Of a stretch of 64,000 nucleotides of DNA, positions 22,575 through 23,760 are shown piece by piece. Each line of letters starts with the position of its first letter. Within the stretch, counting starts at the first letter, position 1. Origin of the DNA: Sphingopyxis sp. GTDB lineage: Bacteria; Pseudomonadota; Alphaproteobacteria; Sphingomonadales; Sphingomonadaceae. The notes below the pieces were generated by a model that made no database searches, was not told where the DNA came from, and saw nothing but the letters and a program-made list of their open reading frames with translations. Position numbers and translations under genes: made by a program. The DNA lies in contig JAGHZY010000010.1 in the NCBI GenBank assembly GCA_017745175.1, positions 1-64,000 on the forward strand, read 5' to 3'.

Positions 22575-23036
22575 ATGACCGGCCATCGCAGCGACGTGCC
22601 GCTCGCCGATTTTCGTGTCCAGGAGCGCGTGCGCGTGCGCTTCAACGAGATTGACGGGCAGAATATCGTCTTCAACGCCAATTATCTGGTCTACGCCGAC
22701 ATTGGCGTGACCGAATATTTCCGCGCGCTCGGCGAGGGGCAGCCTGGACCATATTTTAACCAATATGGTACAGATATTCGCGAGACGCGATGCGAGATCG
22801 ACTATCATGTGCCCGCGCGGCTCGATGAACTGATCACGATCGCGGCCCGAATCAGCCACTTCGGCCGGACGAGTTTCACACTGCACTGCGGTATTTTCCG
22901 TGAAAACGAACGGCTTACCGATATCGAGATCAGCTATGCCCATCTCGATACCGACAGCGGGCAACCGACGCCGCTGCCGGGAAGCTTCATCGCGGAAGTG
23001 CGGCGTTTCGAAACGCGGACGCCTGTGCAGGATTGA
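22575..23036 (+). CDS. Acyl-CoA thioesterase (4HBT family)
   Basis: VRVRFNEIDGQNIVFNANYLVYADIGVTEYFRAL hot-dog fold motif. Confidence 0.85.
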   Translation: MTGHRSDVPLADFRVQERVRVRFNEIDGQNIVFNANYLVYADIGVTEYFRALGEGQPGPYFNQYGTDIRETRCEIDYHVPARLDELITIAARISHFGRTSFTLHCGIFRENERLTDIEISYAHLDTDSGQPTPLPGSFIAEVRRFETRTPVQD

Positions 23037-23076
23037 GTCGCACGAGCCGTATCGACCCTCTCAACCAAAAAAGTCG

Positions 23077-23139
23077 AAAAAAAAGGGCCACCCGAAGGTG
23101 GCCCGTGAAAGTTTTGGGAGAGGATGCCTAAAAGGCAAG
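23077..23139 (-). ncRNA. Predicted trans-acting sRNA with 5' hairpin, CU-rich single strand and UUCG terminator
   Basis: Minus strand CTTGCCTTTTAGGCATCCTCTCCCAAAACTTTCACGGGCCACCTTCGGGTGGCCCTTTTTTTT: TGCC/GGCA hairpin, exposed CCTCTCCC, 8-bp stem with TTCG loop and T8 tail; candidate -10/-35 upstream. Confidence 0.7.
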
Positions 23140-23295
23140 TGTGATATTGCAGTGCACAATGAATGTTGCAACTGCGAAAAGAGCATCCGCTATTGCATTT
23201 TTTGCAATCAAAAACGTTCCCAAAGATCATTTGGTGCAATCCACTGTCGTTCGCAGCCCCTCGCAAAATGCCGCGACATCGCCTAAATTGGCACG

Positions 23296-23760
23296 ATGAG
23301 GATGTTTCAAAAACCCGACATCGGCGGCGGGGTGTCCGACTTCTGGGCCTATATCCGCGAACCCAAGCCCCATCGCTGGGCGATCTGGGGCCTCGCGCTG
23401 GCGCTGACCTGGCTCGTTTTCCACGGCGTCGAGCAATATCTGATCCCGTACGAGAAGCCGAAGGCGCAGATCATCTATTTCGAGAACTGGACCGCGAACC
23501 GCAGCGCCGACGAGATTCGCGCCGACTGGGTCGCGCGCGCCAAGGAAACGACTTTGCATAATGCGAAGAAGCGCGCCGAGTATCAACGCTTTGCCGACAG
23601 CCTCGGCATCGAATATGATTCGAGCGAAGCCGACAAGGTGACGCGCGAAACGCTGGGCGAGGAAGCGGCAGCGGCGGCGAAGAAAAAGCCCGAGCCGGTG
23701 CAGACGCGCTCGACGCTCGCCGAGCGCGCGGCGCGCGGCGCACAGCCCAAAGCCGACTGA
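23296..23760 (+). CDS. Hypothetical single-TM protein
   Basis: 154 aa, FWAYIREPKPHRWAIWGLALALTWLVFHGVEQYL then charged C-terminus. Confidence 0.7.
   Translation: MRMFQKPDIGGGVSDFWAYIREPKPHRWAIWGLALALTWLVFHGVEQYLIPYEKPKAQIIYFENWTANRSADEIRADWVARAKETTLHNAKKRAEYQRFADSLGIEYDSSEADKVTRETLGEEAAAAAKKKPEPVQTRSTLAERAARGAQPKAD

Follow-up and report, generated by a model that had tools for sequence, protein, structure and literature searches.

A SuhB/MmgR-family sRNA between a thioesterase gene and a short uncharacterised gene

The window, a 64,000-nt stretch of Sphingopyxis sp. DNA, contains a 259-nt intergenic gap that runs from the stop of a thioesterase gene (PF03061) at 23036 to the start of a short, uncharacterised gene at 23296, which is followed by ribD. 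The original prediction placed a minus-strand sRNA in this gap, and the gap, the quoted sequence, both hairpins, the single strand with CCUCUCCC, the UUCG terminator and the U8 tail were all recovered at their positions, with the minus strand of 23077–23139 agreeing letter for letter. The RNA folds into a 5-bp 5′ hairpin (UGCCU-UUU-AGGCA; 23125–23137, minus strand), a 20-nt single strand (AUCCUCUCCCAAAACUUUCAC; 23105–23124, minus strand) that carries the anti-Shine–Dalgarno seed CCUCUCCC (23116–23123, minus strand), and an intrinsic terminator with an 8-bp stem and UUCG loop (23085–23104, minus strand) ending in the U8 tail (23077–23084, minus strand). The minimum free energy of this fold is −23.9 kcal/mol (z = −4.96), a value reached by 0 of 200 shuffled sequences. 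One detail needed correcting: the CU-rich stretch had been called a loop, and it is the linker that joins the two hairpins. A terminator scan of 22950–23350 reported the sRNA terminator as its sole hit, which is not significant alone with 0.9 expected by chance. Going by the role of Hfq in this family, the U8 tail is also the expected Hfq-binding end.

The covariance model RF00519 (suhB/mmgR, αr8) matches minus-strand positions 23070–23143 over its full length (1–77) with 54.5 bits (E = 1.9e-8). Because this score exceeds the curated gathering cut-off of 41 bits, it confirms the family membership that had first been offered as a guess from layout. The match is the only one in the window, and a single copy was found in the genome. 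Both the fold and its conservation reproduce the family layout of a weak 5′ hairpin, an unpaired conserved linker and a Rho-independent terminator. The sRNA is a genuine member of the known SuhB/MmgR family and ordinary in kind; a relative has been characterised in the same genus, and its presence here is expected.

That relative, SuhB of Sphingopyxis granuli TFA, is a 61-nt RNA detected by Northern blot and dRNA-seq (Garcia-Romero et al. 2018, summarised in PMC6563040). The same review describes it as highly conserved in Sphingopyxis and as an Hfq-dependent repressor that pairs with the 5′ UTR of thnR, a gene of the tetralin pathway (PMC6563040). The two RNAs are alike in genus, Rfam family and length (about 61 nt, predicted here), a comparison made by description. 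From the position of the −10 element and the length given for the TFA homologue in that review (PMC6563040), we predict a transcript of about 61 nt that starts near 23137 and ends at the U-run. MmgR (αr8) of Sinorhizobium meliloti falls under the same family model and has the same order of 5′ hairpin, anti-Shine–Dalgarno linker and terminator, in a different gene neighbourhood. In S. meliloti, mmgR is reportedly activated by NtrC. SisA–D of Caulobacter crescentus are also αr8 RNAs and use an anti-Shine–Dalgarno seed on ribosome-binding sites with Hfq; Caulobacter has four copies and the sponge RNA CrfA, whereas one copy was found here, and the seed letters differ (PMC12559287).

RF00519 matches above the cut-off occur in 57 of 60 relatives, and a pattern scan of DNA returned at least 120 stretches in Sphingobium, Sphingomonas, Novosphingobium, Erythrobacter, Zymomonas and others. 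We compared at least 119 named sphingomonad copies, retrieved via the sphingomonad seed. The hairpins, the CU-rich strand and the terminator are kept across both sets, so that the conservation on which the original prediction had staked its case is present.

Promoter elements and a PhaR-type box

The original prediction had also proposed TTGCAA-N16-CAATAT as the promoter, with the −35 element at 23166–23171 and the −10 element at 23144–23149 (minus strand). A generic sigma-70 scan found nothing at this place, and support comes from conservation. Counted from the CCTTT core, each position of the −35 TTGC (−36 to −33) is kept in 103–118 of 119 sphingomonad copies, the three specified letters of the −10 motif CAnA (−13 to −10) are kept in 98–115, and the cores of both hexamers hold in the 33 genus copies when 1-nt shifts are allowed. 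The RNA is preceded by a conserved promoter, from which it may be made as a stand-alone transcript. Farther upstream, almost all 119 copies also share the conserved blocks TGCAAy (near −62) and TTTCGCAnTTGC (near −43), with or without the box described below. In the window, the upstream element TTTCGCAGTTGCA (23167–23179, minus strand; near-universal among the 119 copies) includes part of the −35, and a second half-element, TGCAAT, lies at 23192–23197 (minus strand), its TGCA being kept in 82–106 of 119 copies per position. The sole exact match of TTTCGCAGTTGCA in the genome is the sRNA promoter itself. We rejected TTTCGCANTTGCA as the mark of a wider regulon: it has 1 exact match, one mismatch gives 12 matches against 8 for the control, and the near matches that were inspected fall within coding sequence or at its beginning.

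Between the −35 and −10 elements, overlapping the latter, is a palindrome of the form TGCRNYGCA (TGCACTGCA, 23148–23156; extended form ATTGTGCACTGCAATAT, 23144–23160). Its letters fit the consensus footprinted for the regulator PhaR in Bradyrhizobium, TGCRNYGCASMA (PMC6201568); in S. meliloti the core of the PhaR motif is YGCRNYGCR (PMC12542648). The genome encodes PhaR (PF07879). The strict box TGCRNYGCA overlaps the −10 in 33 of 33 genus orthologs, which are related copies and not 33 independent observations, and it appears there as TGCGCTGCA, TGCAGTGCA or TGCACTGCA, versions that differ only where the consensus allows. Among the sphingomonad copies the strict box is present in 23 of 119 and the relaxed S. 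meliloti core in 34 of 119 (19–29%, against 0.5% of control windows), almost always at exactly −20/−21. Most sphingomonad copies from outside Sphingopyxis (71–81%) lack the box, and PhaR control is therefore not family-wide; in promoters from the order's other families, no PhaR box was found at the expected place. All 22 box-bearing genomes encode PhaR, a co-occurrence that fits PhaR control but is uninformative, since 41 of the 42 genomes compared have the gene. We regard the box as a previously unremarked and likely PhaR-binding site.

The same TGC/GCA repeat could instead be read by a different regulator, one that recognises the TGCAAT or TTTCGCA-TTGCA elements, leaving the sRNA itself as described. 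The upstream element has TTGCA half-sites of its own and is present in nearly all copies, whether or not they carry the PhaR box, and another factor, such as one acting through that element, could mediate the dependence of TFA suhB on growth rate (PMC6563040). The letters of the box, however, vary only within the footprinted PhaR consensus, and the genome-wide distribution of its extended form argues for PhaR. The genome holds 25 matches to the extended box TTGTGCRNYGCA and one to its reversed control. Two of the boxes lie at a phasin gene and one at a PHB (polyhydroxybutyrate) depolymerase gene (PF06850), and a patatin gene and the glutamate dehydrogenase gene gdhA have one each. In the genus, all phasin promoters that were examined carry a pair of boxes, and the extended 13-mer of the sRNA promoter recurs in this genome's phasin promoters. 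A non-PhaR reader of the box is thus unlikely, and PhaR remains the preferred regulator.

Neighbourhood and structure across relatives

The order thioesterase gene, sRNA, 23296 gene and ribD is preserved in 30 of 32 genus orthologs tested, the other 2 being on incomplete contigs, and in S. panaciterrae the promoter, sRNA and neighbours are all as in the window. At the seven loci tested in other sphingomonad genera, the sRNA sits beside different genes, and no homologue of the thioesterase or 23296 gene was found next to it. This change of neighbours bears on whether the RNA serves the convergent thioesterase gene, as an antisense or 3′-end regulator, and not targets in trans. The two are only 41 nt apart, measured from the thioesterase stop, with no U-tailed terminator on the plus strand between them; yet the predicted RNA is clear of the coding sequence, the pairing of neighbours breaks down outside the genus, and thnR, which the TFA homologue represses, is a trans target (PMC6563040). 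We consider a dedicated role in thioesterase control very improbable. As a separate observation, the plus strand at 23037–23104 offers the thioesterase gene no U-tailed terminator ahead of the sRNA, and read-through from that gene would therefore be antisense to the sRNA.

Comparison of the copies also speaks to the RNA structure. A terminator hairpin is present in 111 of 119 sphingomonad copies as 88 distinct stems, counted directly, with several standard pair types at every stem position. That the 5′ hairpin and seed do not vary among the 119 copies is partly built in by the search pattern; elsewhere in the order, other families have a 5′ helix that reads GCCC/GGGC, ACCC/GGGU or GCUC/GAGC, paired changes that support it independently. 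Within the genus, the core of the single-stranded linker does not vary. A strong hairpin with a U8 tail could in principle do nothing more than stop read-through or end a minus-strand transcript, without there being any regulatory RNA, but the original prediction was right that no upstream minus-strand gene needs a terminator here, the letters of the stem drift while promoter, 5′ hairpin and unpaired seed are conserved, and a homologue is a proven sRNA (PMC6563040), all of which makes this reading less probable still. Least probable of all is a small protein: open reading frames at 22934–23266 (minus strand) and 22900–23286 (plus strand) do cross the sRNA site, but both overlap the thioesterase 3′ end in another frame, relatives differ in the linker and U-run by single bases and not multiples of three, and conservation tracks RNA structure and promoter.

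In three Novosphingobium loci, two sRNA cores lie on one strand about 0.2 to 1 kb apart, forming tandem siblings.

Seed change, candidate targets and a proposed PHB-responsive model

The single-stranded 10-mer reported across the family is UUUCCUCCCU (PMC12559287). The exact 10-mer is absent from this sRNA, in which the aligned positions read UCCUCUCCCA. Every genus copy has the seed AUCCUCUCCC and not UUUCCUCCCU, as do the named sphingomonad copies, the latter having been retrieved by that seed. The change separates this sRNA from MmgR and sets copies in the Sphingomonadaceae apart from those in the order's other families that were examined. As the curated family model still accepts the sRNA, we read AUCCUCUCCC as a lineage variant of the family seed. 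Its complement, GGGAGAGGAUG, extends from a Shine–Dalgarno sequence into a start codon.

Among possible targets, the gdhA ribosome-binding site GGGGAGGGGUGCAUGG is predicted to pair with the sRNA at −21 kcal/mol, within the top 4 of 202 windows against a biased background, and 19 of 19 Sphingopyxis orthologs have either the identical site or one that pairs equally well. Conservation in Sphingopyxis extends over the whole gdhA 5′ leader (about 50 nt), and the PhaR box ahead of gdhA lacks conservation. Owing to these two features and the biased background, gdhA is a candidate target and a lead only. Phasin mRNA was discarded as a target, its ribosome-binding site pairing at −10.5 kcal/mol, no better than the background average of −10.5, as were two exact seed-complement sites elsewhere in the genome, which start open reading frames of 3 and 11 codons that are not genes.

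Taken together, the locus very probably encodes a free-standing, trans-acting, Hfq-dependent αr8 sRNA that is orthologous within Sphingopyxis, masks ribosome-binding sites and is most likely repressed by PhaR and induced by PHB. In TFA, PHB granules and a high growth rate favour suhB expression, and the review PMC6563040 leaves unstated the route by which PHB acts on the promoter, for which we propose the PhaR box. In S. meliloti, PhaR (AniA) represses mmgR, whose promoter has a PhaR motif, as does the promoter here, and was among those assayed with purified PhaR in EMSAs; PHB, once accumulated, sequesters PhaR (PMC12542648). With the box found here, these two precedents make titration of PhaR by PHB the simplest account. 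By analogy with them, PhaR would most likely occupy the box overlapping the −10 element and repress transcription; formation of PHB granules would draw PhaR off the −10 region and switch the sRNA on, so that it would be made when carbon is plentiful. The seed CCUCUCCC would then pair with purine-rich ribosome-binding sites and lower translation of the target mRNAs in this genome.

We think it fairly probable that SuhB in Sphingopyxis and scattered other sphingomonads is a direct, PHB-induced member of the PhaR regulon, and that the change from UUUCCUCCCU to AUCCUCUCCC, by allowing pairing through the Shine–Dalgarno sequence into the start codon, shifted its targets, with gdhA as a candidate. 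Sphingomonads are used to degrade pollutants, and phenotypes already connect SuhB with PHB and catabolite repression in this group while the mechanism is missing; if true, the model would explain how PHB is tied to catabolite repression in TFA. What goes beyond the known sRNA and is worth follow-up is the PhaR box together with the seed change: the box provides a concrete, cheap test of how sphingomonads read out stored carbon at the RNA level, and the change of seed across the clade amounts to a natural experiment in how an anti-Shine–Dalgarno sRNA shifts its targets.

The genome also encodes Hfq, outside the window (contig C62, 8550–8984). A limited literature search found no paper on a double-domain Hfq, and here a single frame of about 185 amino acids contains two tandem Hfq domains (PF17209, E = 1.5e-29 and 6.9e-25); the sRNA would work with this unusual double Hfq.
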